From: an uncultured Anaerolineae bacterium
GTDB lineage: Bacteria > Chloroflexota > Anaerolineae > JACIWP01
Length of the DNA stretch: 50,824 nucleotides
Reading direction: 5' to 3'
Assembly: GCA_938049385.1 (NCBI GenBank)
Contig: CALIBQ010000017.1
Location: 1-50,824, forward strand
Shown: piece after piece, positions 6,234 to 46,529 of the stretch
Layout: the number at the start of each line of letters is the position of its first letter
How positions within the stretch are numbered: the stretch's first letter is position 1
The notes under the pieces: generated by a model
Databases searched by the model: none
What the model was told of the DNA's origin: nothing
The model's input: the letters and a program-made list of their open reading frames with translations, nothing else
Program-made: the position numbers and the translations under genes

Positions 6234-7832
6234 TTAATCTCGGCGCAGAACGCGTCCGGGCAAGGCACCTGTATGTTCGCCGGCGTATATCACCCACTGC
6301 CCGTTGACCATGACATAGGGGATGCCCTCGGGATACTGGTGCGGCTGTTCGAACGTGGCCCGATCGCGGACCGTCTCCATATCGAACAGTACCAGGTCGG
6401 CGGCATATCCGGGGCGGACCAGGCCGCGATCCGAAAGCCCCAGCCGTTCCGCCGGCCGGCCGCTCATCTTCGCCACCGCTTCCTCCACCGACATCAGTCC
6501 CATCTCCCGCACGTAGCGCCCCAGCACCCGTGGGAAGGCGCCGTAATAGCGCGGGTGCACCTTCACATGGGAAAGCGGTCCATCGGCAGAGACGGCACAG
6601 CCATCCGACCCCACCATCCCCAGCGGATGCCGCAGGAAGAACTGCATATCCTCCTCGGTGCGGTTGAACATGACGGCCGAGAGGCCGTCCTCCGTCTCGT
6701 CAATCAGGCGCAGGAAGGCCCCCTTTGGCTCCACGCCCCAGGCATCGGACAGCTCCTGGATGGAGCGGCCGGCCCAGGCCGGGTCCCCCTTCGACCCTGG
6801 GGAGGCGATGATGATCTTGTCCCATGTCCAGGGCAGGCCCTGGAACCAGCCCTGGTCCAGCTCCGCCAGGATGCGGGTGCGCGTCGGGGGATGGCGCAGG
6901 CGTGCCAGCATGGCCTCTGTGCCGCCCTCCTGCACCCAGCCGGGCAGGAACTGGCTCAGGGCCGAGCCGGCGGCCACGTAGGGATAGACGTCATACGTGA
7001 CATCCACGCCGGCGGCGCAGGCACGCTCCAGGATGCCGGCCAGCTCCGCCGCCTCCCCCCAGTGTCGCGGGTCAATAATGGCCAGGTGGGATATATGCAC
7101 GCGGATACCGGCGCGCCGGCCGATCTCCACCGCCTCCTCGGCGCCCTTGAAATGCCAGCCGGCCCAGAAGCGCCCATGGGTGTCGTACAGGCCGCCGTAT
7201 GCTGCGGCCGTCTTTGCCAGTTCCACGACTTCGTCTGTGCCGGCGAAGCATCCCGGGGAGAGTGTCAGCCCCGTGGACAGCCCGAAGGCACCCTGTTCCA
7301 TGGCTTCCGCCACCAGCCAGCGCATCCTCTCCAGCTCTTCCGCCGTGGGTGCACGGTTCTCATACCCCATGACAGCAGCGCGCACCACCCCGTGCCCGAC
7401 CAGCGGCGCCACATTGAGGGCAATGCCCTGGCGCTCCAGCCGTGCGGCATAGCCGGCCAGGTCGTGCCAGTCCACATCCTCGACGACGGCGGTATAGGCG
7501 CCTTCCATGGTAGAGCGCGGGATAGTGGGATAATAGCCGGCCAGCGGGAAGGGGGAAAGGCCGCACTGGCCGATCAGCTCGGTGGTGACCCCCTGGCGCA
7601 CCTTGCTCTGACCGCGCGGGTCCTGCATCAGGGACAGGTCGGAGTGGGAGTGCATATCAATGAAACCGGGGGCCAGGTGCAGGCCGCGCGCATCCAGTGT
7701 CTGGGCCGCCGGCGCTTCTCCCACATCCCCTACGGCCTCGATGCGGCCGGCGCGAACCGCTACATCGCCGCGGAATGCCGGCCGGCCGTTCCCATCTACA
7801 ATCACCGCCTGGCGGATCAAGATATCGAACAC
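6234..7832 (-). CDS. D-aminoacylase-type amidohydrolase
   Basis: A 532-residue metal-dependent amidohydrolase of the N-acyl-D-amino-acid deacylase family. It has a small beta domain at both ends and a TIM barrel. The HxH metal motif is H61-S-H63 in GFIDMHSHSD. The family cysteine ligand is C90 (LIGQCGLSP), and the later Asp is in the GMVGSDGCAVS block. The GTG start at 7832 is preceded by AAAGGAG. It is 27 bp downstream of the AOR gene and 18 bp upstream of the SDR gene. The family includes D-aminoacylases, D-glutamate deacylases and dihydropyrimidinase-like enzymes; an N-acyl or cyclic amide substrate is likely but the exact compound is not readable. Confidence 0.88.
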   Translation of the reverse strand: MFDILIRQAVIVDGNGRPAFRGDVAVRAGRIEAVGDVGEAPAAQTLDARGLHLAPGFIDMHSHSDLSLMQDPRGQSKVRQGVTTELIGQCGLSPFPLAGYYPTIPRSTMEGAYTAVVEDVDWHDLAGYAARLERQGIALNVAPLVGHGVVRAAVMGYENRAPTAEELERMRWLVAEAMEQGAFGLSTGLTLSPGCFAGTDEVVELAKTAAAYGGLYDTHGRFWAGWHFKGAEEAVEIGRRAGIRVHISHLAIIDPRHWGEAAELAGILERACAAGVDVTYDVYPYVAAGSALSQFLPGWVQEGGTEAMLARLRHPPTRTRILAELDQGWFQGLPWTWDKIIIASPGSKGDPAWAGRSIQELSDAWGVEPKGAFLRLIDETEDGLSAVMFNRTEEDMQFFLRHPLGMVGSDGCAVSADGPLSHVKVHPRYYGAFPRVLGRYVREMGLMSVEEAVAKMSGRPAERLGLSDRGLVRPGYAADLVLFDMETVRDRATFEQPHQYPEGIPYVMVNGQWVIYAGEHTGALPGRVLRRD

Positions 7833-7859
7833 GGCATGCTCCTTTCGCGCGAGGTCGGC

Positions 7860-9725
7860 TTATCTTCGCCACAGATCGTCGGCGATATCGTGCAGGCCGA
7901 GCCGGCGCAGGGTTTCCTCAGTGGGGATGGCGGCATCCAGCGTCCATCCCATTTCGCGCAGATGCTCCTGGATCATGGCCTCCACCTCGACCGTGACGCC
8001 GGCGGTCGGGCCGTCGGGGAGCGGCGGCCGGCCCAGGATGCGGTCCGGGAGCGGCCGTTGGAGCGGGTTGATGCCCTCCCGCACGTTGAAGGCCTGGCGC
8101 ACGTTGGCGATACGCTCGCCCACGGTCAGCACATCCTGCAGGGTATAGGTATGACCGGTGACGGCGGTCAGGAAATCGGGCATGAAGCTCACCGAAGTGG
8201 AGAGATACCCGAACAGGCACAAGCCGCTGGCGTTGACCACGTGGCAGAGACAGCTCGCCTCCTTGACCCATTTGCCGCGCCCCCTTTGCTGGGCGCGGTT
8301 GTCGCCGTAGGCCGGCCGCTGGGTGGGGAAGCCGGCCGCCACGTAGTACTGGCTGGCCTGGGTATGCCGGCCGGGGGTAGCGTCCATCTGGTAAATGACC
8401 GCCATGGCCGGCTCACAGCGGGGATCGTGCGCCGGCACTTCCTGGCCGCCGACGTGCATGGCCAGCGGCACAGCGGCCGGCCCGATGCGCTCCGCCGCCC
8501 GCATGACGCCGTCCGCCAGCAGGTCCCCAATGCCCTCGCGCCGGGCGATCATCTCCGTCAGGCGCACCGCCGCTCGACGGTCCCCCCAGCACAGTTCCAG
8601 CCCACCGGTGTCCTGCACCGTGATCAGTCCCTGCTCGAAGCAGTCGAAGGCGAAGGCCACCGCTGCGCCAGTCGAGATGGTGTCCAGGCCGGCGCGGTTG
8701 CAGATGTCATTGACCTTCGCCAGGGTAACATGGTCGTCAATCAGCAGGTTACTGCCGAACATGGACTCCGTCTCATATTCCGGTTGGTGCGCCCAGAACC
8801 TCTCGCCCTCCCACTCCATCTCGACCGTGCCCCAGCAGGCGATGGGACAGCGCCAGCAGTTCTCGCGCTCCTTGCGGTACTTGACCAGCTCCTCGAAGCG
8901 CAGAGGGGCGGAGCCGCGCGGCATATGGATGGTGCTGATGGCCCAGTTGCGGGTGGGCGAATCCCCCAGTTCGATGCAGAGCGCAGTAGCACCAGGTGTG
9001 CCGGTGGTGCGGTAGAAGTCGGAGAAGCCAACGCCGGCATTGATCTCCCCCACATATTTCTTGCGCGCCGCCTGCACCGCCTCGGGGTCCGCCACAGGCA
9101 CCTCGCCTTCCAGGAAGGCGACGACGGCTTTCACCTTTTTGGCGCCCATGGCCGCGCCCAGGCCGGAGCGGGCGGCGGCTCGGCCTTTCAGGGTGATGAC
9201 GCCGGCGATGCGGGACTGCTTCTCGCCGGCCGGCCCGATGCAGGCCACCTCCGCCTTCGGCCCGAACTCCGCCTTGACCCAATCCTCGACCGCATAGGTA
9301 TCCATGCCCCAAAGATGAGAGGCGTCGCGCAGTTCCGCCTGCCCATCCCGCAGGAAGAGATAGACTGGCTTCTCTGCCTGGCCGGTGAAGAAAATCATGT
9401 CGAACCCTGATTGCTTCATCGCCACGCCGAAGTTGCCGGAGCCGTTGGCATCTCCCCAAGTGCCGGTGAGCGGCGATTTGCCGAAGACGCCCCAGCGGGT
9501 GCCGGTGGGTGCCGGCGTGCCGGTCAGCGGCCCAGTAAAGAAGCCGAAGATGCTCCCCGGCGCCAACGGGTCGAGGCCTGCCGGCTGGCGGCTGTACAGG
9601 ACGCGTGCCGCCACGCCGTACCCGCCGACAAAATCGCGCAGGAGCGAGTCATCCGGGGTTTCCACCTTCATCTTACCCGTGCTGAGGTCCACCCAGAGGA
9701 ACCGGCCGGCGTATCCACCCAACAT
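7860..9725 (-). CDS. aor: Aldehyde:ferredoxin oxidoreductase (tungsten/molybdenum)
   Basis: A 621-residue AOR-family enzyme, close to the usual length of about 605-620. The N-terminal domain (GRFLWVDLSTGK, GFFTGPLTGT) binds the bis-pterin cofactor. The [4Fe-4S] ligands are C290-x2-C293-x3-C297 and C503, matching the spacing of the characterised Pyrococcus enzyme. QEVPAHDPR (428-436) is the conserved cofactor-binding stretch. The enzyme oxidises aldehydes to acids, or reduces acids, with ferredoxin in the cytoplasm. ATG at 9725 is chosen because the upstream frame extension (MFGLFPTL) is read from a MITE and because GGAGG precedes this ATG. It is the first gene of an operon with an amidohydrolase and an SDR. 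No MoaD-like or ferredoxin gene adjoins. Confidence 0.95.
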   Translation of the reverse strand: MLGGYAGRFLWVDLSTGKMKVETPDDSLLRDFVGGYGVAARVLYSRQPAGLDPLAPGSIFGFFTGPLTGTPAPTGTRWGVFGKSPLTGTWGDANGSGNFGVAMKQSGFDMIFFTGQAEKPVYLFLRDGQAELRDASHLWGMDTYAVEDWVKAEFGPKAEVACIGPAGEKQSRIAGVITLKGRAAARSGLGAAMGAKKVKAVVAFLEGEVPVADPEAVQAARKKYVGEINAGVGFSDFYRTTGTPGATALCIELGDSPTRNWAISTIHMPRGSAPLRFEELVKYRKERENCWRCPIACWGTVEMEWEGERFWAHQPEYETESMFGSNLLIDDHVTLAKVNDICNRAGLDTISTGAAVAFAFDCFEQGLITVQDTGGLELCWGDRRAAVRLTEMIARREGIGDLLADGVMRAAERIGPAAVPLAMHVGGQEVPAHDPRCEPAMAVIYQMDATPGRHTQASQYYVAAGFPTQRPAYGDNRAQQRGRGKWVKEASCLCHVVNASGLCLFGYLSTSVSFMPDFLTAVTGHTYTLQDVLTVGERIANVRQAFNVREGINPLQRPLPDRILGRPPLPDGPTAGVTVEVEAMIQEHLREMGWTLDAAIPTEETLRRLGLHDIADDLWRR

Positions 9726-10092: not shown

Positions 10093-11598
10093 CTATTGGG
10101 TGATAGACTCAATCCAGGCAAAGAGCTCGTCGAGGTCGTAATTCCCGCCGTGCCCCCGTCCCCACGGTAGAGCGAAATCAACATCATGGCCGGTGTTCAT
10201 CAGCTTGGTGGCTAGGATGATGGGGATGGCGATAGAGGTATCCCGGTCGACCGCGCCATGTCGAATTCGCCAGTAGTGCGAAGATCGGGCACCAGGGGCG
10301 CCGATATAGTACATGGGATTCATCATTTTCACGATCTGCCAGTCAGCGAGAGGAGCATGCCAGGTCGCATATGGTGTGGTGAAGCTGTACCATGTGAAGT
10401 GCTGATTGTCAATGGTAGCCGTGCCGAAAAGGTTGTTCTCCCAGGTCGGTGCGTAGATGCTGTCGAAGGCCGGCGCCGGCTTCATGCGTGTCGCATAGGC
10501 CACATACGCGGCAAAGTCAATGTCGGTGACGACACCATCCACGATCGTGATCCAGGATAGGCCGGACAGGTCCACTCCACTGTCCAGTGCTTTTTGGGCA
10601 GAGGCGATCACAAACGACTTGACGTAGTCCTTGAAAGGCCCTTCCCCCTCGGCGTCCAGTGTCAGCATTGTGCCCTGTTTGAGCTGTCCGTATGCATGCC
10701 GCAGGCCGATGCCGTGGTCATTCCTGGGTTCGGAGTACCACAAGCCAAGGCTGTTCACATAGGCGGGGAACATGTCCTTCAGCTCTTTTGAGACGATAAG
10801 CCGGTCTCCGGTCATGGTCCCGCCGCCCATGAACGTATAGTCATTCAGGCCGTAGAACAGCCATTCGTACGCGGTGTCCGAATTGTCCAGGTTGGTGATA
10901 GGACAGTATGCGTTGGTAGCGAAGATGTCGTCTCTTTCCTTGGCGGCACCGATTTCATTTAAATAGGGTTCATAATCTTTGTGATTGCCGGTAGCGCCCA
11001 ACAATGCGGAGAGCGCGCCGCCGGCGCTGGTGCCGCTGGAGATGATCTTCTCCGCATCTCCTGGCATGATCTTGTCGTTATAGCGCAGGTAGCGGACGGC
11101 GGCTTTCAGGTCCACGATGGCGGCCGGCGCCTTGCCGTTGTAGATACCCGTGGCATCTTTGTTCGTACGGCCGCGCACACCCGGCGCTACCACTACATAG
11201 CCCTTGGCGAGGGCTGTGGCCACTTCGATGCGGGTCGGTTCGGCCGGCAACCCCGGGTTATATCCGCCCACCGCGTTCGGGAAGAAAATCGGGCCGTTAT
11301 GCGTCTTATAAGCCTCCAGCGGGATATCTATGGGTACATAGACGTTGAGCTTCTGGTATACCGTGTTGAGAGGATAGACGATCTGAGCGGGGTTAGTAAC
11401 ATAAACGATGTTTCTGTAGGCCCGGAAGGTAACTGTCTGACCTCCCACTGTGACGGTTTCCACGGTGAAGTTGTTGGGATCAAATACCAGACTCTTTTCT
11501 TTGACTTGAGGCAGTGGAGGAGCGGCGACAACGGTCAGTACTGAGCTAACCAGCAGGACGAGCGTCATAACAAAGGCCAGCCAGTTGCGCGCTTTCAT
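10093..11598 (-). CDS. Secreted subtype-B tannase (alpha/beta hydrolase)
   Basis: A 501-residue exported serine esterase. Residues 1-26 are a signal peptide (basic MKARN, then a hydrophobic run ending VVAAP). The nucleophile elbow is G189-T-S191-A-G-G194. The motif GAVDRDTS holds the candidate acid (D451), and H483 lies in GRGHGGNYD. The 32-residue gap between D451 and H483 equals that between Asp419 and His451 of Lactobacillus plantarum tannase as I recall them. The family hydrolyses galloyl esters of hydrolysable tannins. ATG at 11598 follows AGGAGGCG. The gene is monocistronic, with its own terminator. Substrate assignment is by family; another aromatic ester is possible. Confidence 0.82.
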   Translation of the reverse strand: MKARNWLAFVMTLVLLVSSVLTVVAAPPLPQVKEKSLVFDPNNFTVETVTVGGQTVTFRAYRNIVYVTNPAQIVYPLNTVYQKLNVYVPIDIPLEAYKTHNGPIFFPNAVGGYNPGLPAEPTRIEVATALAKGYVVVAPGVRGRTNKDATGIYNGKAPAAIVDLKAAVRYLRYNDKIMPGDAEKIISSGTSAGGALSALLGATGNHKDYEPYLNEIGAAKERDDIFATNAYCPITNLDNSDTAYEWLFYGLNDYTFMGGGTMTGDRLIVSKELKDMFPAYVNSLGLWYSEPRNDHGIGLRHAYGQLKQGTMLTLDAEGEGPFKDYVKSFVIASAQKALDSGVDLSGLSWITIVDGVVTDIDFAAYVAYATRMKPAPAFDSIYAPTWENNLFGTATIDNQHFTWYSFTTPYATWHAPLADWQIVKMMNPMYYIGAPGARSSHYWRIRHGAVDRDTSIAIPIILATKLMNTGHDVDFALPWGRGHGGNYDLDELFAWIESITQ

Positions 11599-12387: not shown

Positions 12388-12460
12388 TATTTCTCCCCTC
12401 TGCCTGGTTTATGGTATCATGCAGGAGGCCGGCCGCACGGCCGCTGAATCATCTCGGGAG

Positions 12461-14338
12461 ATGGGAGAAACATTGTCGACTGCCCGGCTACAGAAACTGG
12501 TACTGCGATTACTGCCCTGGGGCGTGTTCGCCGCCGGCCTGGGCCTCTATACCGCTACCCTGGCGCCGACCGTTGTCACGATTTTCGATGACAGCCCGGA
12601 GTTTCAGCTCGTCTGCTACCGCCTAGGCGTGGCACATCCGACCGGCTATCCCCTGTACACCCTACTGGGCTGGCTGTTCACCCGGCTTCCTTTTGGTGAT
12701 GTGGCCTATCGGTTGAATCTGCTGTCGGCGGTCTGCGCCGCCGGCGCGCTGGCCGGCCTGTTCGTCCTCGTGCAGGAGCTGACCGGACGCCCGCTGGCCG
12801 GCCTGCTGTCCGCCCTAGCGCTGGCACTCTCCCCCGTCTTCTGGTCCCAGGCCACCATCGCCGAGGTCTATGCCCTGCACCTCTGCATCACCGTCTGGCT
12901 GTTGGCGGCGCTGGCGCGCTGGGAGGCGACCGGCGCGGAGCGATGGCTGGTCATCGCCGCCGGCCTCTTCGGCGCCGGCCTGGCCCATCACCGCACCATC
13001 ATCTTCCTGCTCCCCGGCCTGGCCCTGACGCTGGTTTTGCCGGCCAGCAAGGGGGAATCCCGCCGGCCGTGGCGGAGATATCCTTGGTGGAAGACAGCGC
13101 TGGCCGGCCTCCTTCCGCTCCTGCTTTATGCCTATATCCCGCTCATCGGCGCGCGTGCCGGTTCCCTGGACGGCACGTACCGCAATACCTGGGAGGGGTT
13201 CTGGCGCCATGTGCTGGCGCTGGACTACAGCGCCTTCCTGACCGGCAATCCGCTCTCCCAATCGCGAAGCGCCGGCGATTACCTGCACCTGTGGCTGGCG
13301 CAGTTCGGGATAGTCGGGGGATTGGCCGGCGTCCTGGGGCTGATATGGTCCGGCCGCCGACGGCGCACCGCCTGGGCACTCCGCCTGACTGGCCTGATAT
13401 GCCTGGCCTTCGCCGTGATGTACCGGGTGGCAGATATCGAGGTCTTCCTCCTGCCGGCCTTCCTGGTCGGCGCAGCCGGCATCGGCCTGGCGTTCGACTG
13501 GCTGGCGGCACGATGCCAGGTACTCCCCCCTCGCGCGGGGCTTCGCCAGTTCGCGGCCGGCGCAGTGGCGCTGGCGCTGGCCGGCCAGGCCCTCTGGATG
13601 GGCATCCATACCTTCCCACAAGCGGACCGCTCCGACGATTGGGAGGTGCACGATTGGGCGGTGCAGGCGCTGTCCGCGCCCCTGCCGCAGGATGCTGTCG
13701 TCATCGGCATCCTGGGCGAGATGACCGTCCTGCGCTATTACCAGGAGACGCACGGCCTGCGCCCTGATATCCGCACCACTGCCGCCGACCAGGAGCCGGC
13801 GCGCTGGGCGGCCATCGAAAAGGCGCTGACGGAGACGGGCGAGGCCTATCTCACCCGCGGCATGGCCGGCCTGGCCGAGCGCTATCACCTGGATGCCGCC
13901 GGCCCACTGATCCGGGTGCGGCCCAAGCCGGTGCCGGCGGAACACCCTTCCTGCGCCGGCGTCGAACTGCTCCCTGGGCTGTGCCTGCAGGATTGGAATA
14001 CTGCCCTGCGCCGCATGCCGGGCGGCTGGCACGCCGGCATCTCCCTGGAATGGCAGGCCCTGCAGGCCCTCGACCAGGATGTGCGCTTCTCCCTGCGCCT
14101 GGTGGCCGGCGACGGCAGTACCATCGCCCAGCATGACCGCCGGCCGGTGCACGAGGCCTATCCTACCACCGCCTGGCAGGCCGGCGAAAGCGTGTCCGAC
14201 TGGCACGACCTGCTGGTACCGCCGACTGCTCCACCCGGCGCGTACGAAGCCATCCTCATCCTGTACGACCCCGCCAGCGGCCAGGAATGGGCGCGCTGGA
14301 GCCTGGGGCAGGTGAATGTGCCGGCGGAGGCATCATGA
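12461..14338 (+). CDS. DUF2723 membrane glycosyltransferase-like protein
   Basis: A polytopic membrane protein of 625 residues from this start. The N-terminal 200 residues match the DUF2723 family (related to protein O-mannosyltransferases): LGLYTATLAPTV, then a loop with DDSPEFQ whose acidic pair is the usual catalytic site, then AHPTGYPLYTLLGWLF. About ten membrane helices are followed by a soluble C-terminal domain. The start is uncertain: an extended -10 (TGGTATCAT) ends at 12420, so ATG at 12419 is unlikely. I chose ATG 12461; TTG 12473, after GGGAG, is equally plausible. It overlaps the next gene by ATGA and is paralogous to the gene at 43940-45367. The sugar donor and acceptor are unknown. 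Confidence 0.8.
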   Translation: MGETLSTARLQKLVLRLLPWGVFAAGLGLYTATLAPTVVTIFDDSPEFQLVCYRLGVAHPTGYPLYTLLGWLFTRLPFGDVAYRLNLLSAVCAAGALAGLFVLVQELTGRPLAGLLSALALALSPVFWSQATIAEVYALHLCITVWLLAALARWEATGAERWLVIAAGLFGAGLAHHRTIIFLLPGLALTLVLPASKGESRRPWRRYPWWKTALAGLLPLLLYAYIPLIGARAGSLDGTYRNTWEGFWRHVLALDYSAFLTGNPLSQSRSAGDYLHLWLAQFGIVGGLAGVLGLIWSGRRRRTAWALRLTGLICLAFAVMYRVADIEVFLLPAFLVGAAGIGLAFDWLAARCQVLPPRAGLRQFAAGAVALALAGQALWMGIHTFPQADRSDDWEVHDWAVQALSAPLPQDAVVIGILGEMTVLRYYQETHGLRPDIRTTAADQEPARWAAIEKALTETGEAYLTRGMAGLAERYHLDAAGPLIRVRPKPVPAEHPSCAGVELLPGLCLQDWNTALRRMPGGWHAGISLEWQALQALDQDVRFSLRLVAGDGSTIAQHDRRPVHEAYPTTAWQAGESVSDWHDLLVPPTAPPGAYEAILILYDPASGQEWARWSLGQVNVPAEAS

Positions 14339-32702: not shown

Positions 32703-34076
32703 ATGGCACCCAACTCGTTCTGGAAACGCACCCCGGGACAGATGATGGAATTTCTCCTGGGGTTGGATGTCAATTACCTGGCGGAGACCCTGGTGGCCTT
32801 CGCTAACGCCGACGGCGGCACCATTGTCGTCGGCATGGATGCCAGCGGGGAACGCGAGGAAGGCATCTTCCTGGACGATGTGGCGATGGCCCTGCAGAGT
32901 GCCCAGAGCCGCTGTCGGCCGCCGGTACCGGTCGAATGGCATCCCTCGGAGACGCCGGACGGCCTGCCGGTCCTGCTGGAGGTCCAGCGCAGTCCGGACT
33001 TGCACAGCCTGGATGACGGCCGTGTGCTCGTCCGCTCTGGCCGGCTGAACCGCCCTCTGGGCGGCGAGGAAATCCTGCATCTGGCCTCCGGCAAGGGTCG
33101 CGGCGAGTTCGAACTGGAGCCAGTGCCCGGCGCCACATTAGACGACCTTGACCCTGACATCATCGAAGAGTACCTGGACAAGCGCAAGAAGCGTTCCCCG
33201 CGCGCCATTGCGGAGACGCCGGAGCAGGTGCTGGTGGAGATCGGGGCGCTGGACGCGCAGATGCGCCCTACTGTTGCCGGCATGCTCCTGTTCGGCCGGC
33301 ATCCCCAGGTGTTCCTGCCCAAGACCGGCGTCCAGTTCGTGCGCTTTCTGGGCAGTCGGAGCGAACCCGGTTCCCAGCGGGCCTCGGACCAGTACGGCCG
33401 GCGCGAGGAGATGGTCGGCCCTCTGCCTCGGCTCATTCAGGAGACCTGGGAACTGCTGTGGCAGTACCTCAACCCCACCGAAGAGGTGAACGGTCTGGCA
33501 CGGCAGGAGCACAGCGATTACCCACCTATCGCCGTGCGCGAAGCATTTATCAACGCCGTCGCCCACCGGGATTACCGCATCCGCGGCCGGCAGATCGAGA
33601 TTCACATGTACGATGACCTGCTGGAAATCACCAGCCCCGGCGGCCTGCCCGGCTACATCACCCTGGACAACATCGTGGACGAGCACTTCTCGCGCAACCC
33701 GCGCATCGTCAACGGCTTGTACTACTGGGGATACATTGAGGAACTCGGCACGGGTATTGACCGCATGATGTCCGAAATGGCCCGCGCCGGCCACCCGCCC
33801 CCCGTCTTCCACGAGACACCCTTCTCTTTCACGGTTACGCTGTACAGCCGGCGCGATCGCGCCCCCATCCCCGTCTGGGAAGAAGACATGAACGAGCGCC
33901 AGTTGAAGGCGCTGAACTACATCGCCCAGCATGGGCGCATCACCAACCGCGAGTACCGCCAGCTCTGCCCCGATGTCACGCCGGAGACCATCCGCCTGGA
34001 CCTGGCGGATTTGGTGGCACGTGGCATCCTGCTGAAAATCGGCGACAAGCGCGGCACATATTACATCCTGAAGTAA
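32703..34076 (+). CDS. AlbA_2 / HATPase_c_4 / winged-helix regulator
   Basis: A 457-residue protein of the family often labelled ATP-binding or RecG-like transcriptional regulator. Residues 15-115 are the AlbA_2 (Schlafen-type) domain (TLVAFANADGGTIVVGMD). Residues about 270-390 are a HATPase_c_4 module (PIAVREAFINAVAHRDYR, ELGTGIDRMMSEM). Residues about 396-457 form a winged helix (GRITNREYRQLCPDVTPETI). Such proteins combine nucleic-acid binding with a GHKL-type ATPase fold. AAGGAGG precedes ATG 32703. It follows gyrA by 42 bp and precedes the NACHT-FGE gene, whose promoter carries repeats it could bind. Direct regulation is inference. Confidence 0.85.
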   Translation: MAPNSFWKRTPGQMMEFLLGLDVNYLAETLVAFANADGGTIVVGMDASGEREEGIFLDDVAMALQSAQSRCRPPVPVEWHPSETPDGLPVLLEVQRSPDLHSLDDGRVLVRSGRLNRPLGGEEILHLASGKGRGEFELEPVPGATLDDLDPDIIEEYLDKRKKRSPRAIAETPEQVLVEIGALDAQMRPTVAGMLLFGRHPQVFLPKTGVQFVRFLGSRSEPGSQRASDQYGRREEMVGPLPRLIQETWELLWQYLNPTEEVNGLARQEHSDYPPIAVREAFINAVAHRDYRIRGRQIEIHMYDDLLEITSPGGLPGYITLDNIVDEHFSRNPRIVNGLYYWGYIEELGTGIDRMMSEMARAGHPPPVFHETPFSFTVTLYSRRDRAPIPVWEEDMNERQLKALNYIAQHGRITNREYRQLCPDVTPETIRLDLADLVARGILLKIGDKRGTYYILK

Positions 34077-34134: not shown

Positions 34135-34163
34135 TTGACAATAACATATGCCGTCGCTACAAT
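34135..34163 (+). promoter_or_regulatory. Promoter of the NACHT-FGE gene
   Basis: TTGACA (34135-34140), 17 bp and TACAAT (34158-34163). The predicted start near 34170 lies just before the TATCCCAAA repeats. Confidence 0.8.
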
Positions 34164-34173
34164 GATAGCAGAA

Positions 34174-34219
34174 TATCCCAAACCGATATCCCAAATATCC
34201 CAAAGGGGATATTTGGGAT
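34174..34219 (+). promoter_or_regulatory. TATCCCAAA iterons and perfect hairpin (operator or leader)
   Basis: TATCCCAAA occurs at 34174, 34187 and 34196. The last two form the left arm of a perfect 14-bp inverted repeat: ATCCCAAATATCCC (34188-34201), a 4-base loop and GGGATATTTGGGAT (34206-34219). At DNA level this offers four copies of one half-site. At RNA level it is a stable stem just before the ribosome-binding region. Confidence 0.7.
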
Positions 34220-34243: not shown

Positions 34244-36985
34244 TTGAGGCCGGCGGTGCGGAAGCTTGTCTCCCGACAGAGCAGGTACGTCTTCCTCTGG
34301 ACAATGCGGGTCGCTCAGGCCGGCGCTCTGCTCGCCGGCGCCCTGCTCCTGGCCGGCTGTCAGGCCGGCGGGGAAGAGATACCCCTTCCGCCGGGCAGTG
34401 ATGCCTTCAAGTACCTGCTGGCCTGGCTGGAGAAATACGGCCCCTGGGGCATCCTGGCCGGCCTGCTTTTGCTCTTCTTCGCCGCATTTTTCAACAAAGT
34501 CTTTGCCTGGGTCTCCGAGCGCTTCTTCCAGCGGGTGGTCACCGCCCACGACGAATGGCAGAGCGCGCGTCAGCGCGAGCGCCAGCTTGACACTGCCACC
34601 CAGGCCTATATTGACCACGTGCTGGCGCACTACACCCTGGTCAACCTGCGCGGCATCCGCTCCAGCCAGCCCTTCTCCCTGGAACTGGAGGATATTTACA
34701 TCCCCCTCAGCACCCTGCGGCCTATGCAGGAGCTGAACGCCGGCGATGGCGATACAGAGGCACACCGCCTGCCGGTGCGCGAGCGTCCTTTCTCCATAGA
34801 GCTGAAGGAGCTTCTGCCGCGCTGTAAGCGGCTGGTCATCCTTGGAAGCCCGGGCGCCGGCAAGACCACCTTCCTGAGCTATTTAGCGCTGACCTATGCC
34901 CGTCACCTGGACGGCCGCTGGCCGCGCCTGATGCAGGAACGCCTGGGGTTTGAGGAAGCACTGGTGCCGCTCCTGCTCCCTCTGCGCGACCTGGCGCGGC
35001 ACATCCGCGTGCGCTACGAGGAAGGGGTGGTAGAGGCCGGGCCGGCGGTGTTGATGGATTTCATCCGCCGGCACTTCGCCCAATGGAACCTGCCCCTGCC
35101 CGAGGATTTCTTCCCCCGCCTGCTGGAAGAGGGCCGGTGCCTGGTAATGCTGGACGGCCTGGACGAGGTGGCCGATTACGATGAGCGCGTCTTCGTGCGC
35201 GAGATGATCGAGGCTTTCGCGGCGCGCTATCCCCGCAACCGCTACCTGGTCACCTGCCGCGCCGGCGGCTATCATGACGCGGCGCGCCTGGCCAGTGGGT
35301 TCGTGGAATGCCACATCCGCGACTTCGACGGCGAGGATGTGCGGCGCTTCGCCCAGGTATGGCACCTGGCGGTGGAGGCGGCCACTGCCGGCGGCCTGAC
35401 CGATGCCGTTCGCCAGCGCGCGGAAAAGGCGGCGCAGGACTTCCTCAACGCTGTGCACAGCAACCCCCGCATCCGCGCCCTGGCCGTCAACCCCCTGATG
35501 CTGACCGTCATCGCCCTGGTGCACCGCTACCGCGCCACCTTGCCCCAACGCCGGGTGGAGCTGTACGACGAGTGCACAGAACTGCTCCTGGGTCACTGGG
35601 ATATGGGCAAAGAGGGAGAGGAGGCCAAATGGCTGGCCGAATGGGCCGGCATGGACATCCCCCTCGACCCTTCTGAAAAACGCTCCCTGCTGGAGCCGGT
35701 CGCCCGCTGGTACCACGAACACCGCCTGCTCAGCGCCGACGCTCAGCAGGTGGAGGAACTGCTGACCGAGCGGTTGGCGCAGTTGGTGGTGCCGGCCCAG
35801 CCGGCCCTGCCAGCACATTCTCGCCAGCGCGCCCGCGCTTTCCTCCAGTTCCTGGACGAGCGGAGCGGCCTGTTCCGCGAATGGGAGGCCGGCCGCTATG
35901 CCTTCACCCACCTGACCTTCCAGGAATACCTGACCGCGCGCGACATCGCCGCCGGCGACGATTATATCTCCGCACTGCTCCGCCACCTCGATGACCCTTG
36001 GTGGCGCGAGACCATCCTGCTCACTGCCGCGCATCTCAGCACCTCCAGCCGCTCGCGCGCTTCCCAGCTCGTGCGCGCCATCCTGGCCGCCGGCGTCAAA
36101 CGGGGCACGCGCTGGTGGCCGGCGGTCATCCTGGCCGGCGAATGCCTGGTGGACATCGGCAAATACCGCATCGATGCCCAGTTATGGCAGGATGTGGTGG
36201 ACGGCCTGGTGTGGATTGTGGAACACAACGGCGTCCCGCTGGCCGACCGACTGCAGGCCGCCGGCGTCCTGGGGGAGCTGGGCGACCCACGGCTGGGACA
36301 GACGGTCACCGTCCCGGGCGGGGATATCATTGTGACGAGCAGCGGCCGCATCCACCGCCTGTTCGTCGAACGCTTCGAGATGGACCGCCTGCCGGTCACC
36401 AATGCCCAGTTCGCGGAGTTCATCCAGTCCGGCGGCTACCGCACGCGCGAGTACTGGAGCGAGGAAGGCTGGCAGTTCATCCAGAGCAAGGGCATCCGCG
36501 CGCCGCGCTTCTGGGATGATCCCATGTGGAACCGGCCCAATTACCCGGTGGTGGGCGTGAGCTGGTACGAGGCGGAGGCATATGCCCGCTGGGCCGGCGG
36601 CGCTCTGCCTACGGAACTGCAGTGGCTGAAGGCCGCCGGCTGGGAGCCGGAAACGGGCCGCGTGCGGCGCTGGCCCTGGGGCGACGAGTGGAAGCCGGAC
36701 GCCGCGAACACCGCCGAACTGCGGTTGGAGCGCACCACGCCGGCCGGCCTCTTCCCTGGGGGAGCCAGCCCCTGCGGCGTGCTGGACATGATCGGCAATG
36801 TGTGGGAGTGGTGCGCCAACGTCTACGCGGAAGGGAACGCCGCCAACGGCACCCCTGCGCGCGCCCTGCGGGGCGGCTCCTGGTGCGAGGAGATGAACCT
36901 GGCGAACGTGGCCGGCCGCGACCGCGCCCTGCCTACCGCACGAGAAGCGGATATCGGCTTCCGCCTGGTATGGATAGAAAAATAA
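34244..36985 (+). CDS. Lipobox/TM-anchored NACHT NTPase fused to an FGE-sulfatase domain
   Basis: A 913-residue fusion. Residues 1-40 form a basic-hydrophobic signal ending in lipobox L36-A-G-C39, and a second membrane segment lies at 67-84. A NACHT/STAND NTPase follows, with Walker A GSPGAGKTT (201-209), Walker B VMLDGLDEV (301-309) and the sensor YLVTCRAGGY, then a helical arm to about 680. Residues about 690-913 are an FGE/SUMF1-type C-type-lectin fold (VTNAQFAEFI, GNVWEWC, RGGSW, IGFRLVW) without an obvious catalytic Cys pair. Start is uncertain: TTG 34244 keeps the basic stretch, GTG 34256 and ATG 34304 are alternatives, the last giving a minimal lipoprotein signal. Likely a nucleotide-switched sensor; role unknown. 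Confidence 0.82.
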   Translation: MRPAVRKLVSRQSRYVFLWTMRVAQAGALLAGALLLAGCQAGGEEIPLPPGSDAFKYLLAWLEKYGPWGILAGLLLLFFAAFFNKVFAWVSERFFQRVVTAHDEWQSARQRERQLDTATQAYIDHVLAHYTLVNLRGIRSSQPFSLELEDIYIPLSTLRPMQELNAGDGDTEAHRLPVRERPFSIELKELLPRCKRLVILGSPGAGKTTFLSYLALTYARHLDGRWPRLMQERLGFEEALVPLLLPLRDLARHIRVRYEEGVVEAGPAVLMDFIRRHFAQWNLPLPEDFFPRLLEEGRCLVMLDGLDEVADYDERVFVREMIEAFAARYPRNRYLVTCRAGGYHDAARLASGFVECHIRDFDGEDVRRFAQVWHLAVEAATAGGLTDAVRQRAEKAAQDFLNAVHSNPRIRALAVNPLMLTVIALVHRYRATLPQRRVELYDECTELLLGHWDMGKEGEEAKWLAEWAGMDIPLDPSEKRSLLEPVARWYHEHRLLSADAQQVEELLTERLAQLVVPAQPALPAHSRQRARAFLQFLDERSGLFREWEAGRYAFTHLTFQEYLTARDIAAGDDYISALLRHLDDPWWRETILLTAAHLSTSSRSRASQLVRAILAAGVKRGTRWWPAVILAGECLVDIGKYRIDAQLWQDVVDGLVWIVEHNGVPLADRLQAAGVLGELGDPRLGQTVTVPGGDIIVTSSGRIHRLFVERFEMDRLPVTNAQFAEFIQSGGYRTREYWSEEGWQFIQSKGIRAPRFWDDPMWNRPNYPVVGVSWYEAEAYARWAGGALPTELQWLKAAGWEPETGRVRRWPWGDEWKPDAANTAELRLERTTPAGLFPGGASPCGVLDMIGNVWEWCANVYAEGNAANGTPARALRGGSWCEEMNLANVAGRDRALPTAREADIGFRLVWIEK

Positions 36986-37377: not shown

Positions 37378-37406
37378 TTGACCTTCGCGCCGGCCTGTGA
37401 TATCCT
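37378..37406 (+). promoter_or_regulatory. Promoter of the membrane-anchored protein gene
   Basis: TTGACC (37378-37383), 17 bp and TATCCT (37401-37406). It supports the GTG start at 37445 over the ATG at 37397. Confidence 0.6.
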
Positions 37407-37444
37407 CAAACTATCCTTCCCATCACCATGGGGAGAGTGCCAGT

Positions 37445-39316
37445 GTGACATCTGCTCGCCGGCGAGTTGCGGGAACAATCTTTGCCCTTCTCATCATCTG
37501 TGCGATGGTCATCGGCGCCTGGGAATGGCAGAGCGGACGCTTCCCATGGCGCGTCCCTTCCCCCGGCGAAAAGCTGATCCTGGCATCGCCGGCCCCCGCG
37601 CACCTGACACCAGCAAGCTTTCCCAGCGGGCTTTTCCTGCTCCATGACAGCGCCTTCGGCCCACCCAATGCCGCGGACTGGCGGCGGAGCTATGCCGGCT
37701 GGGAAACCCTGGGCGGCTGGGTGGAGGTCACCTGGGAGGAGATCAACCCCACCGAAGGACAGTACGACTTTTCCCGCATCGTGGAGTACCTGAACGCGGC
37801 GGGGCAGAGCGGCCGGCCGGCGGCCGTCAGTGTGCTCTTTCACGGGGAATCCCCCAGCCCGTCCAAGCGCCTCGCCGACTGGACGCCGGCCTGGGTCTAT
37901 CAGGATATCCCCGGGCGTCCCGTGCTAGACGGCCGGCCCGTAGGACGCGTCCTCCTGCCAGAGGGATGCGATCGGCCGGCGGCCCTGCCCCTGTATGAAG
38001 ACCCGCGCTGGCAGGCCCACGCCGACGCTCTGCTGGAGGCGCTGGCACGCGAGTTCGACGCGCCGGACCGCTATCCCGCTCTGCTGGCCATCAGCATCGG
38101 TGAGGGGTTCGCCGGCCTGGACCAACCCACCCAGGACCTGGTCTGCGCCTACAGCGCCCAGCTTGAGCCGGCGGCGCAGGAAGGCTTCGAGCGCTGGATG
38201 CTCCACTGGATGACGCAGTGGGCGGAGCATTTCCCCCATCGGCTGGCCTGGCTGGTGACAACGCCGGCGCGTGCCGCCCAGCGGGCGGAGCAAATTGACG
38301 CTCATGTCGCCGGCCGCATCGGCCTGCTAGTGGAACAGCCGGCGGCCCAGGCTGAACTGCCGGCGCCGTCCGCGCTCACCCCGCGCCGCAGTACCATCCC
38401 CATCGGCTGGCGGCTGGCAGAACCGGACTCCCTCTCCCAGACCTACTGGGGAATCCTGGACGCCATCGGCGCCGGCATTGACTGGTTAGACCTGCCTTGG
38501 GCGCACATCACCACCGCCCAGACGATCCGTCAGGAGACCGGCCTGGACCTGCTGAAAATGGCCGGTGCCTATGTGGGGCACAGGGTCGCGGATGCGCCAG
38601 GGGTGTGGGTGCTCTTCGGTCTGCCGGCCGGCTCCGACGAGAAGGGGGAGAATGCCCGCGCGTTCGGCTTGGTGCCGCATGACGTGGATGTCTGGCGGGT
38701 GGTCTACCAGCCGGCCGCGCCGCGCTTCGGCGGCCTGCTCCTTTCCATGCCCGCCGGCCTGTACCTCGCTCCGCGCGGCGCTTCATCAGCCCTGGACCTC
38801 GAAATCTCCGATCCGTGGCAGGGGCGCGAGAGCGTCAAGACGGGCGGCCGGCTGGCCATCCTGCGGCTGGTGTACCTGGACCGCGGCACGGATGCCTTCC
38901 AGCTCACCTACCCCGCGCAGGACGGTGTGCTGGCCTCGCGCCGCGTGCAAAAGACAAATACCGGCGAATGGCGCCTGGCCGAGTTCCCGCTGGTCAAGCC
39001 GGACTGGGACGCGCCAACGTCCTTTGACCTGCGCCTTGACAGCGGTCAGGACGGGGAAGAGGTCATCCACTGGGTCGAAATCCGGGCCGTGCCGCCGGCG
39101 GAGCTGGGGCCGGTGCAGATGGCACAGGCCGGCTGGTCCTTCACGCGGGCGGAGAGCGCGCCGGCACAGACCGCATCCGCGCCGGCTGTCGCAGAAACGC
39201 GCCCATCTGTCGCGCTGCCGACGCCATTCATACCGCCCCTGGTGTGGGTGCTGGCGGGATTAGCCCTCGGCATCATCATCCTGGCGGTGCGACTGCTGGT
39301 CATCCAGGAGGACTAA
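37445..39316 (+). CDS. Membrane-anchored protein with glycosidase-like N-terminal region
   Basis: A 623-residue protein. Residues about 5-30 are a membrane segment after the basic TSARRR. Residues about 60-330 look like a TIM-barrel glycoside-hydrolase relative: WVEVTWEEINPTEGQYDFSR is the family-typical approach strand, followed by SVLFHG and ISIGEGFAG, where the Glu sits like an acid/base residue. The region after about 400 looks beta-rich, and a C-terminal helix near 597-617 would anchor it again. I do not recognise the exact family. GTG 37445 follows GGGAG and a promoter. Its 3' end overlaps the convergent gene by 57 bp. It may act on the surface polysaccharide made by the neighbouring operon. 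Confidence 0.7.
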   Translation: MTSARRRVAGTIFALLIICAMVIGAWEWQSGRFPWRVPSPGEKLILASPAPAHLTPASFPSGLFLLHDSAFGPPNAADWRRSYAGWETLGGWVEVTWEEINPTEGQYDFSRIVEYLNAAGQSGRPAAVSVLFHGESPSPSKRLADWTPAWVYQDIPGRPVLDGRPVGRVLLPEGCDRPAALPLYEDPRWQAHADALLEALAREFDAPDRYPALLAISIGEGFAGLDQPTQDLVCAYSAQLEPAAQEGFERWMLHWMTQWAEHFPHRLAWLVTTPARAAQRAEQIDAHVAGRIGLLVEQPAAQAELPAPSALTPRRSTIPIGWRLAEPDSLSQTYWGILDAIGAGIDWLDLPWAHITTAQTIRQETGLDLLKMAGAYVGHRVADAPGVWVLFGLPAGSDEKGENARAFGLVPHDVDVWRVVYQPAAPRFGGLLLSMPAGLYLAPRGASSALDLEISDPWQGRESVKTGGRLAILRLVYLDRGTDAFQLTYPAQDGVLASRRVQKTNTGEWRLAEFPLVKPDWDAPTSFDLRLDSGQDGEEVIHWVEIRAVPPAELGPVQMAQAGWSFTRAESAPAQTASAPAVAETRPSVALPTPFIPPLVWVLAGLALGIIILAVRLLVIQED

Positions 39317-42810: not shown

Positions 42811-43956
42811 TTATCCTTTCTGTGCCGGCCGGCCCAGCAGTTCGCGGTACGCGGCCAGGGTGGCGCGCGCTGCCGCCGGCCAGGTGAATTCAGCGGCGCG
42901 CGCCAGGCCGGCCTCTGCCAGGGCCTGCCGGCGTTCGGGCGCTGTCAGCAGTTCCAGCAGAGCACCGGCGATGGCCTCCTCGTCCTCCGGGTCGAAGAGC
43001 AGGGCGGCGCCGCCGGCCACCTCATTCAGCGCCGGCCGGTCCGCACAAGCCACCGGCACCCCACACGCCATGGCCTCCAGCACCGGCAGTCCGAAGCCCT
43101 CGTACAGGGACGGATGCACCAATACCTCCGCCCCCTGGTACAGCCGTACCAGGTCATCATCGGAGAGCCGGCCCAGCACGTACGCTGACTCTGCCTGCTG
43201 GAACGCTTCCAGGATGCCGCGAAAACGCTGGTCCTGCGGGCCAGCCCAGACCAGCGCCGGCCGCTCGCCCCAGGCATCTTGCCAGCGCGCCATGACCAGT
43301 GACCAGGCCTCGATAAGCCGCCCCAGGTTCTTGTGCGGCTTGTTGATGCCGGCATAGAGCACATAGCGCGCCGGCAGGCCGCGGGAACGCTTCCAGCGCT
43401 CCACCTCCGCATGACCCGCCGGCGGGCGAAAACGCGGGTCAGGCGCCGGGTACGTCACCCGCAGGCGCGCCGGCGGCACGCCCAGCAGTTCGGTCATATC
43501 CTTGGCGGTGGTGTGGGATATCGTCAGGCACAACCCGGCGCGCCGCACCGCCAGTCGGTGAAGCAGGTGATAGAGATGGCGCCTCCAGGCCGGCGAGAGA
43601 GCCGACGGCACCCGCAGGGGCACCAGGTCATAGACAGTCAGCACCGTCGGAAGGCCGGCCAGATACGGCATCAGGTAATAGGTAGCATGATACAGGTCTG
43701 CGTCCAGTGTCCGGAGCAGGCGTGGGATGGCAACCTGCCCCGCCGGCGAAAAGGGCGACCAGGGCGCCGGCACAAGCTTCAGATGGGGGAATTCCCCCGC
43801 CAGGGCACGCCAGGGCACATCCGCGCGCGGGTCGTGGAGCAGAAGGATTTCCAGCCCTGGGTCCTCCTGCGCCAGCGCTCGCGTCAGGTGATAGACATAG
43901 CGTCCGATGCCGGGGAAATACTCCCCTGCCGGCCGGCCGTCAAGGACAACCCGCAT
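42811..43956 (-). CDS. GT4-family glycosyltransferase (mannosyltransferase-like)
   Basis: A 381-residue GT4 enzyme. It opens MRVVLDGRPAGEYFPGIGRY, the typical start of the WbaZ/mannosyltransferase branch, has YAGINKPHKNLGRLIEA in the inter-domain strand and EGFGLPVLE as the E-x7-E motif. ATG 43956 follows GGGAGGGGG and lies 17 bp inside the 3' end of the upstream gene, implying translational coupling. Mannose-type transfer is a guess from the subfamily. Confidence 0.93.
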   Translation of the reverse strand: MRVVLDGRPAGEYFPGIGRYVYHLTRALAQEDPGLEILLLHDPRADVPWRALAGEFPHLKLVPAPWSPFSPAGQVAIPRLLRTLDADLYHATYYLMPYLAGLPTVLTVYDLVPLRVPSALSPAWRRHLYHLLHRLAVRRAGLCLTISHTTAKDMTELLGVPPARLRVTYPAPDPRFRPPAGHAEVERWKRSRGLPARYVLYAGINKPHKNLGRLIEAWSLVMARWQDAWGERPALVWAGPQDQRFRGILEAFQQAESAYVLGRLSDDDLVRLYQGAEVLVHPSLYEGFGLPVLEAMACGVPVACADRPALNEVAGGAALLFDPEDEEAIAGALLELLTAPERRQALAEAGLARAAEFTWPAAARATLAAYRELLGRPAQKG

Positions 43957-45367
43957 CCGCCCCCTCCCGCGGCGTCACTTGATAGAGCAGGCCCGCCGGC
44001 CGAACACAATACAACTGGGTCACCTCAGCGTCCAGGTAGCGGTCCAGCGCCGCCAGGAACACCGGCCGCCGGCCCAGTATGCCGGCGATAAAAGGCACCT
44101 GCCGGTCCTGCCCGCTGTATATTTCCACCACCAGCACATCGGGCCGCCGGCCCTCCACCTGCTGGAAGTAGAGCAAGTTCTGCCGCAGGGTGTGGTCGGC
44201 CAGCACCACCGCGTCCGCCGGCAGGGAAGCCAGGACTTCCTCGCCGTACTGGCGCGGGCCCCAGTACGCGGTTTTGGCCGGCCACAGATGGAACCAGTTG
44301 CCGTCGCGATACGGTAGCTGGCGCAGGCCCAGCGGGTTCCAGCCCAACGCGTTGAGCGATAAGGGCAAGAGGAGATAGAGCAGGACAGGGGCAAGCAGTG
44401 CGCCGGCCGCCAGACGCACAGGATGCTTCCAGCGGCGGAGAAGCCGCTCCATCCCCGATCCGATGCACAGCGCGGTGATGAAATAGGCCGGCAGGAAAAA
44501 GACATACCCGTCGGGCGCGGGGAACAACAGGGCGAAAATCACATCGCCCACCCAGGCCAGCGCCAGGAACCAGGCGGCCGGCCGGCGTTCCCACCGCAGT
44601 GCCCGCCACCCCAGCCAAGCCGCCGGCAGGGACAGTGGAAACTGATACAGGGCGAAACCGGCCGCCAACAGCGCACGCACCGGCAGGCCAGGCACTGCCC
44701 CCATCATCCCCGCCAGGGTCGCCGTCAGGTGCGCGCCCCAACCCGCGCCGGCCCCTCCCAGGCGGTGAAGCGCCAGGGTCGCGCCCAAACCAGCCAGCAG
44801 GCCGGCGGCTCCCATTACCGCTGGACGCCGACCCGGCGCGTGAAGCCAGAGCACGGCCAGTGCCGGCAGGGCGGTCAGCGCCAGCGGATGTACCGCCGCG
44901 CCCAGACCCAGCAGGAAGGCGGCCAGACCCAGCGCGGCTGGCCGGCTTTCCTCCAGCCAGCGCACGCCGGCCAGCAGAAAGCCAGCGAAAAGGCACAGGA
45001 ATGTGGTATAAACCTCGGCGCGCACCGAATGCATCCAGTATGCATGACTCACCGCCAGCGCGCCGGCGCCCAGGCCGGCGGTGAGCACGCTGGCATCCAG
45101 CCGGCGCAGAAGGACATAAGCCAGCGCAACACCCACTGCACCCCCCACCGCGGAACACAGGTTGACGCGGAAGGCCGCATCCTCGACGGGCAGTAAGGTA
45201 AAGAGGTGTGCCCAAAGGATATAGAGCGGATGGTCCCGCGGGCCGGGATTCCATTCCAGCAGGACAGCACGGCGCTGAAGCTCGGCATCGTCGCCCCACA
45301 GCACGGTGGGAGACAGCGTCGTCAGGTACAGCGCCAGGGCCAGGGCGCACGTCAGCACTGCGCCCAT
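43940..45367 (-). CDS. DUF2723 membrane glycosyltransferase-like protein
   Basis: A 475-residue polytopic membrane protein paralogous to the product at 12461-14338. Shared blocks are LALYLTTLSPTVLWGDDAEL (acidic pair DD in the first external loop), RDHPLYILWAHLF, FRVNLCSAVGG and YWMHSVRAEVYTTF. About ten helices are followed by a short soluble tail with PADAVVLADHT. The start is ATG 45367, preceded by AAGGGGG. The open frame extends 86 codons upstream through the previous gene, but there the sequence is basic and non-homologous. It probably transfers a sugar from a polyprenyl carrier on the outer face. Confidence 0.85.
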   Translation of the reverse strand: MGAVLTCALALALYLTTLSPTVLWGDDAELQRRAVLLEWNPGPRDHPLYILWAHLFTLLPVEDAAFRVNLCSAVGGAVGVALAYVLLRRLDASVLTAGLGAGALAVSHAYWMHSVRAEVYTTFLCLFAGFLLAGVRWLEESRPAALGLAAFLLGLGAAVHPLALTALPALAVLWLHAPGRRPAVMGAAGLLAGLGATLALHRLGGAGAGWGAHLTATLAGMMGAVPGLPVRALLAAGFALYQFPLSLPAAWLGWRALRWERRPAAWFLALAWVGDVIFALLFPAPDGYVFFLPAYFITALCIGSGMERLLRRWKHPVRLAAGALLAPVLLYLLLPLSLNALGWNPLGLRQLPYRDGNWFHLWPAKTAYWGPRQYGEEVLASLPADAVVLADHTLRQNLLYFQQVEGRRPDVLVVEIYSGQDRQVPFIAGILGRRPVFLAALDRYLDAEVTQLYCVRPAGLLYQVTPREGADAGCP

Positions 45368-45392
45368 GCTTCGTTTGCCCCCTTGGAGAAGG

Positions 45393-46529
45393 TCAGCCGC
45401 GGCCGGCCAACACTGTCTCATACACCTCCTCCATCCGTCGGGCCACCGCAGGAGCGGAGCAATGGGCCTCGACATGCGCCCGGCCGGCCTGCCCCATGCG
45501 CCGTCGGCGCCCCGCATCCGCACCCAGCTCCCGCACCGCTTGCACCACGCGCGCCACATCTCCCGGAGGGACCAGAATGCCCGTCTCGCCGTCCCGCACC
45601 ACGTCCGGCACGCCGCCGTCGGCAAAGGCTACCACAGGCACGCCGGCGGCCATGGCCTCCATCAACACCCGTCCGAAGGGTTCCACCCGCGCGGTATGCA
45701 CCAGGATGTCCAGCGCCGCCATCACCGCCGGCATATCTTCCCTGGCTCCCAGAAACTGACAGCGATCGCCCAGTGTGCAGGCCGCCCGCTCCTGTAGATC
45801 GGCCAGATAGCCGGCATAGCGGGCATCGGGGATATCCCCCACCACCCAGAAGCGGCTTTCCGGCAGGGCCGGCGCGGCATACGCCGCGACCTCCAGGAAC
45901 AGCTCGACCTGCTTCCAAGGGGCGATCCAGCCGGCGTTCCCGATGAGCAGGGCATCCTCCGGCACTCCCAGCTCGGCACGTAGCCGCCGGCGCGTTCCCC
46001 CGTCGGGCCGGAAGCGCTCTGTATCAATGCCGTTGGGGATGATGACGAGCTTGCGCCGCGCGCCGGCCGGCAGGGGTGCGGCCGCCGCCGAGGAGACGGC
46101 CACCACCGCCGCGCTCCAGGTGCTCATCCAGCGGCAGTACAGCCGCTCCTTGGCATAGATATCGTGCACGTGCCAGACCAGAGGCACGCCGGCCAGCCGA
46201 GCCGCCGGCGCGGCGTACAGGGATGCCCGCTGGGTGTTGCTGTGGATCATGTCAGCGTGCCGCCGCCGGACGAGCGCGACGAGCGAGGCAATCCCCTGCC
46301 ACCACAAACGCAGAGCTTGCGGTCCGCGCCGGCCGCGCAGGCGCTCCAACCGAAGCTGCGCTGTTTCCACACCGATCGCTTTCGCCGCCTGCGCCAGAGG
46401 GGATGCCGGCGCGGCGGCTAATATCGGCTCAAAGCGCCAGCGGTCCAGATGCGCCATCAGTAGGAGCAGGTTCTGCTCGGCGCCGCCCATCCAATCCGCG
46501 TGGTCCACGAACAAGACGCGCCGGCTCAT
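45393..46529 (-). CDS. GT4-family glycosyltransferase
   Basis: A 378-residue GT4 enzyme. It opens RRVLFVDHADWMGGAEQNLL, has the inter-domain block VIIPNGIDTERFRPDGG and the E-x7-E motif EPFGRVLME followed by AMAAGVPVVAF. ATG 46529 overlaps the stop codon of the preceding gene in ATGA, so the long upstream frame extension is rejected. It is 25 bp from the following DUF2723 gene. Its role is sugar addition in the same glycan pathway. Confidence 0.93.
   Translation of the reverse strand: MSRRVLFVDHADWMGGAEQNLLLLMAHLDRWRFEPILAAAPASPLAQAAKAIGVETAQLRLERLRGRRGPQALRLWWQGIASLVALVRRRHADMIHSNTQRASLYAAPAARLAGVPLVWHVHDIYAKERLYCRWMSTWSAAVVAVSSAAAAPLPAGARRKLVIIPNGIDTERFRPDGGTRRRLRAELGVPEDALLIGNAGWIAPWKQVELFLEVAAYAAPALPESRFWVVGDIPDARYAGYLADLQERAACTLGDRCQFLGAREDMPAVMAALDILVHTARVEPFGRVLMEAMAAGVPVVAFADGGVPDVVRDGETGILVPPGDVARVVQAVRELGADAGRRRRMGQAGRAHVEAHCSAPAVARRMEEVYETVLAGRG

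Follow-up and report, generated by a model that had tools for sequence, protein, structure and literature searches.

The locus described here raises the question of what is done, and on which side of the membrane, by a single polypeptide that combines a lipoprotein-like signal, a transmembrane (TM) helix, a NACHT NTPase and a C-terminal FGE-type domain. The gene lies in a 50,824-nucleotide stretch of DNA from an uncultured Anaerolineae bacterium, which in its entirety we refer to as the window, and an earlier note on this DNA had suggested that its product is a membrane-tethered sensor with a possible role in antiphage defence. The gene is as follows:

34244..36985, + strand: NACHT-FGE gene, encoding 913 aa from TTG 34244 or 893 aa from ATG 34304

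This open reading frame is real, as the earlier note had taken it to be, in that its product has 95% protein identity in two congeners (G001 and G002) and dN/dS is about 0.03-0.15 in every segment. The choice of TTG 34244 as the start also holds up: G002 has ATG at the position of the window's TTG 34244 and GTG at that of the window's ATG 34304, so that from this comparison the upstream start appears at least as likely as the downstream one. The export signal is kept whichever of the two is used, and residues are numbered here from ATG 34304 unless stated otherwise. Three segments make up the bulk of the protein:

34832..35365, + strand: NACHT NTPase, with Walker A GSPGAGKT and Walker B LVMLDGLDEV
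35384..36283, + strand: NLR-like helical part (aa 361-660), which together with the NACHT domain superposes on NOD2 and NLRP3 in the model
36299..36973, + strand: FGE-sulfatase/C-type-lectin domain, non-catalytic, the 3' end of which corresponds to the variable region (VR) of relatives with diversity-generating retroelements (DGRs)

Both named domains are confirmed by Pfam searches, with NACHT (PF05729) scoring 45.3 bits against a cut-off of 26.7 and FGE-sulfatase 164.8 bits against a cut-off of 23.3, and the window genome contains a single NACHT above cut-off. In an AlphaFold2 model built from 55 sequences (mean pLDDT 86, pTM 0.80), the NACHT domain and helical core align with NOD2 over 418 residues (Z 20.3) and with NLRP3 over 420 residues (Z 19.6), and NLRC4 matches the window protein with an E value of 2.5e-12. 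The modelled NACHT and helical domains thus superpose on those of animal NLRs such as NOD2, NLRP3 and NLRC4, but an FGE lectin fold takes the place of the LRRs, and a membrane anchor that of the CARD or PYD.

The FGE part of the model matches EgtB and FGE structures with Z scores of 24-30, and it also matches the Treponema DGR variable protein TvpA (2y3c) with a Z score of 23.6. The best alignment of the domain is to EgtB (Z 30.5, 41% identity over 231 residues), which is what might be expected of an active enzyme of FGE or EgtB type under the control of the fused NTPase, but the catalytic features are missing. The FGE active site contains two paired Cys residues close to the C-terminus (C336/C341 in human FGE), whereas the tip of the window domain has only one Cys (C861) in or after the RGGSW motif, in agreement with the impression in the earlier note that no catalytic pair is present. 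The N-terminal DinB-like iron-binding domain of EgtB has no Pfam match in the window protein, and the same position in the family is the DGR variable region in relatives. We therefore reject a catalytic FGE or EgtB, both the Cys pair and the DinB-type domain being missing, and regard a regulated enzyme of this kind as highly improbable.

The side of the membrane on which the FGE domain lies would be set by the N-terminus, which contains three features:

34304..34360, + strand: signal peptide with lipobox LLAG-C19 (Cys19 codon at 34358-34360)
34361..34435, + strand: short exported segment (aa 20-44) with a PLPPG motif, also present in L018 and L020
34436..34507, + strand: single TM helix (aa about 45-68), running on in the model as a helical stalk to aa 110

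The lipobox is present by pattern match, as had been reported; a lipobox at positions 12-35 arises in 1.9% of shuffles of residues 2-45, and a lipoprotein signal peptidase is encoded in the window genome. The TM helix that had been placed at residues 67-84 of the 913-aa form coincides with the strongest hydrophobic stretch of the protein (residues 45-72 in ATG numbering, KD up to 2.16), and beyond residue 72 the hydropathy never exceeds 1.46, which leaves one TM only. In the AlphaFold2 model a long helix (residues 48-110) joins the TM to the NACHT core, residues 1-80 being of low confidence (pLDDT about 40-65), and the Pfam search finds no family and no known effector domain in aa 1-180. With no second TM, we reject a location of the FGE domain outside the cell. 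The proposal of a membrane-tethered sensor is thus backed as to the tether, by the signal and the TM, but not as to sensing at the surface, since one TM would put the FGE domain in the cytoplasm.

The proposed topology of exported N-terminus, TM and cytosolic NTPase is predicted to recur in nine relatives that have a signal peptide, an exported stalk, a TM, NACHT and FGE (L012/L052, L018, L020/L056, L069, L073, L138, L140, L141 and L142), the signal peptides being assigned by eye and from hydropathy. Their exported stalks are mostly Pro/Thr-rich, and in L018 and L020 the PLPPG motif stands before the TM as it does in the window protein. Their signals are mostly of the SPase I kind, with Q-T-P or a similar sequence following the end of the signal, and a clear lipobox is seen only in the window protein, with the G002 contigs breaking over it (between window 34331 and 34389) and G001 cut at aa 176. 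Lipidation may therefore be peculiar to the window protein, with export followed by one TM as the recurrent trait. Other relatives (L061, L063, L095, L104, L110 and L143) have one or two N-terminal TMs and no signal peptide. In a 132-row FastTree tree the anchored proteins sit in at least four separate places, and a single origin of the signal-peptide and TM class is unsupported: the label needs six changes, at least five of them forced by starred branches, although one of the six is inflated because the incomplete orthologue L038 is labelled soluble.

The earlier note had held that homologues consistently without the N-terminal anchor would count against it, and this objection applies in part: by label the anchor is absent in 115 of 132, the reason being that the N-terminus is a slot whose contents are exchanged within the family. 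In the Pfam searches of 124 relatives this slot holds DUF4062 in 17, a calcineurin-like phosphoesterase in three, TIR in two or three, and a single instance each of caspase, SIR2 and AlbA, the last as an AlbA_2 domain fused in the slot. DUF4062 ('Swarozyc') has been reported as a TIR-like NADase in antiphage defence that also occurs beside NACHT in human proteins (PMC13174449); the window protein itself is without it. Because the same slot holds DUF4062, TIR, SIR2, caspase and phosphoesterase domains in relatives, the slot occupied by the membrane module is, judged by domain order across the family, the effector position. The membrane-proximal N-terminus being so placed, membrane clustering or permeabilisation would be the likeliest output, a step that we infer from position, as the N-terminus has no known effector domain. 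Alternatively, the N-terminus could be merely a localisation anchor, with the output made by a separate partner recruited via the stalk or helical region. Anchor sequences differ greatly among lineages (SPase I or lipobox signals, one or two TMs), and this variety suggests selection on location and not on a specific pore sequence, but the neighbours of the anchored relatives include no conserved partner gene besides the DGR RT. We give this explanation, which overlaps with the one we favour below, a substantial but minority share of the probability.

Of 118 family loci, 33 have a DGR-type reverse transcriptase, as do 21 of the 51 for which at least 8 kb of DNA is available; these enzymes adjoin the anchored relatives L018, L056, L142 and L073. 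Mismatches between TR and VR fall at TR adenines in 15 of 15 cases in L157 (G227), 20 of 21 in L063, 14 of 15 in L095, 12 of 12 in L089, and 7 of 8 in L156 (G008), and both L157 and L156 are signal-peptide and TM proteins. The variable and template repeats of L157 are at 10820-10928 and 12592 onward, and the five NACHT-FGE genes with clear VR/TR pairs are mostly from Chloroflexota. In L156 (G008, 6554-9403) the FGE C-terminus stops early inside the VR (CRPPRS) relative to L020, which may reflect a recent inactivation or frameshift. Repeat matches at L073, L159 and L057 are not TR/VR pairs and resemble an extended repeat of near-identical copies, a simple repeat and a paralogue. The locus DNA examined for L056, L158, L160 and L161 yielded no TR.

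The window protein does have a C-terminus of the DGR-target type, with a C-type-lectin/FGE fold, but we reject the window gene as a DGR target. RVT_1 has no match in three genomes of the genus (G000, G001 and G002; the window genome is 98% complete), in a search that was positive in G008 and G227. The best TR score near the gene is 16.8, which is noise, as compared with 52-92 in the DGR relatives, and a genome-wide search found nothing convincing elsewhere in the window genome. Since DGRs are common among relatives, their loss in the window genus is a simpler guess from these comparisons than that they were never present. The sensor tip has meanwhile been conserved. Against G002, dN and dS are 0.017 and 0.493 for NACHT, 0.015 and 0.351 for FGE, and 0.036 and 0.593 for the stalk and TM, and with both congeners the FGE dN is 0.015 with dS at 0.33-0.35. 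The whole protein, including the FGE tip, is under purifying selection. The absence of a DGR together with the conservation of the tip points to one constant ligand, and in the window genus this is probably one invariant molecule. The gene is also single-copy, syntenic and slowly evolving within the genus, a behavior less typical of arms-race genes.

For the control of the gene and its surroundings, the following features are relevant:

32703..34076, + strand: upstream gene with SLFN_AlbA_2, HATPase_c_4 and a DeoR-type HTH, a predicted regulator
34135..34163, + strand: sigma-70-like promoter (TTGACA-17-TACAAT), matching the consensus at 11 of 12 positions and conserved in G002
34174..34219, no strand assigned: three TATCCCAAA copies, immediately 3' of the promoter
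37397-39316: downstream gene, 639 aa, without a Pfam match; its product has a hydrophobic segment at the N-terminus and a TM at the C-terminus

For this promoter, shuffling the region gives 0.1. The second and third copies of TATCCCAAA contribute to a perfect 14-bp inverted repeat (34188-34201/34206-34219), the arms of which are identical in G002 with the loop changed from AAAG to CTTT, and a genome search finds the exact element to be unique within the genome. Folded as RNA, the repeat has a z of about -4 in the window and -3.4 in G002. Its role may be that of an operator, or of a hairpin in the 5'-UTR. The protein with AlbA_2, HATPase and HTH domains, which is 96% identical in G002 and was not found in G001, is a candidate regulator of the NACHT-FGE gene.

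Upstream lies gyrA, and farther away are genes for SerRS, rho and other housekeeping functions; an S1-domain protein and a PBP are also encoded in the window; downstream, at 41.7-50.3 kb, is a glycosyltransferase/polysaccharide (glycan-biosynthesis) cluster. The adjoining downstream gene is syntenic in G001 and G002, with a protein identity of 83% as compared to 95% for NACHT-FGE, and partial relatives of the 483-609 part of its product occur several times in the congeners. The window also contains two TMEM260-like/PMT_2 protein O-mannosyltransferase homologues (12419-14338 and 43940-45625), which are possibly relevant to glycosylation of exported stalks. PADLOC matches the NACHT-FGE gene to no defence model, the only hit being PDC-S73 over the P-loop (E 0.0084), and with housekeeping and glycan genes as neighbours in the annotated window we reject a defence island. 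The defence role suggested earlier is therefore plausible from the family, with its death-effector domains in the slot and its DGR-diversified sensors, but draws no support from the locus.

These observations can also be accommodated by an endogenous envelope-stress or developmental sensor that binds a constant host ligand, for instance a protein of the envelope or a glycan precursor, and governs an envelope or cell-cycle output. Purifying selection on the FGE domain, the absence of a DGR, the lone NACHT above cut-off in the genome, the glycan cluster downstream and a promoter of its own with a conserved inverted repeat are all consistent with such a role. However, the relatives have toxic effector domains and DGR-diversified sensors, the gene that adjoins NACHT-FGE has no Pfam family, and nothing links the NACHT-FGE protein in function to the glycan cluster. 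As to the source of the ligand, the relatives favour defence, whereas the quiet neighbourhood and slow evolution favour an endogenous role; taken as a whole, we consider the endogenous sensor unlikely.

The explanation that we favour, although by no means strongly, is that of an NLR-like STAND switch tethered to the inner membrane, its sensor being a lectin fold without catalysis that faces the cytosol and has a fixed ligand, in which oligomerisation leads to a membrane output. The NACHT and FGE domains would be located in the cytoplasm beneath the membrane, and binding of ligand by the FGE tip would release autoinhibition. ATP-driven oligomerisation would then gather the N-terminal stalk and TM segments into a ring, and the resulting membrane cluster would constitute the output, either by permeabilisation or as a platform for a partner. 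The outcome would be growth arrest or cell death in response to an intracellular invader or to damage, and the role of the window protein is probably, on our analysis, defence or stress-triggered cell death. Several relatives would renew the sensor tip by means of a DGR, whereas the window genus, without one, would keep its tip conserved.

The NACHT/STAND-FGS architecture, its link to DGRs, and membrane-placed examples have already been published (PMC8195603, PMC10907252, PMC7159879), and STAND-FGS systems have been proposed as invader sensors (PMC8195603, PMC10907252). As in the STAND NTPase-FGS counter-invader systems (Kaur et al. 2021, PMC8195603), a NACHT/STAND module is followed by a C-terminal FGS/FGE lectin fold, and these systems share with the family described here a swappable N-terminal effector or adaptor and, often, a DGR. 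The window protein differs from them in that its N-terminus is an export signal and TM, not a listed EAD or enzyme, and in that neither a DGR nor an EAD partner was found. An EAD or known effector is common but not universal in the published set, which includes members with uncharacterised N-termini, and CLec-STAND proteins lacked experimental characterisation as of that report (PMC10907252). The DGR 3 targets of Thiohalocapsa PB-PSB1 (PMC10907252) likewise have NACHT fused to a CLec sensor and an N-terminal extension without known domains, one being predicted to have cytoplasmic NACHT and CLec and one to be periplasmic. In contrast to these, the window gene lacks both an RT and a TR and has been conserved throughout its genus, and the relatives and congeners of its product are Chloroflexota (Anaerolineae). 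The tripartite order of N-terminal effector, central NACHT and C-terminal sensor is also that of bNACHT antiphage proteins (PMC12169576), although those bNACHT proteins that have been characterised contain a nuclease effector together with NCH1, or else SNaCT domains, whereas the window protein has an FGE domain, a signal peptide and a TM. We found no reports of a recurrent signal-peptide, stalk and TM form in Chloroflexota, nor of a fixed member in a DGR-diversified lineage, within a literature coverage that is incomplete.

A broader proposal, which we put forward as doubtful, is that there is a distinct, recurrent Chloroflexota class of type-I-membrane NLR-like receptors, composed of signal peptide, exported stalk, TM and cytosolic NACHT-FGE, that are often DGR-hypermutated at the sensor, with the window genus having a 'germline-fixed' member that has lost its DGR and recognises one ligand, its N-terminal membrane module acting as a death effector and its expression subject to a dedicated regulator at the inverted repeat. 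Should the reading given here hold, NLR-like receptors would be built into the bacterial inner membrane, in a family that holds both DGR-hypermutated and fixed versions of the sensor. The two would then offer a ready-made comparison by which to learn what STAND sensors with a lectin fold recognise, because hypermutation makes the ligand hard to identify, whereas the fixed version should have a single ligand that can be found.
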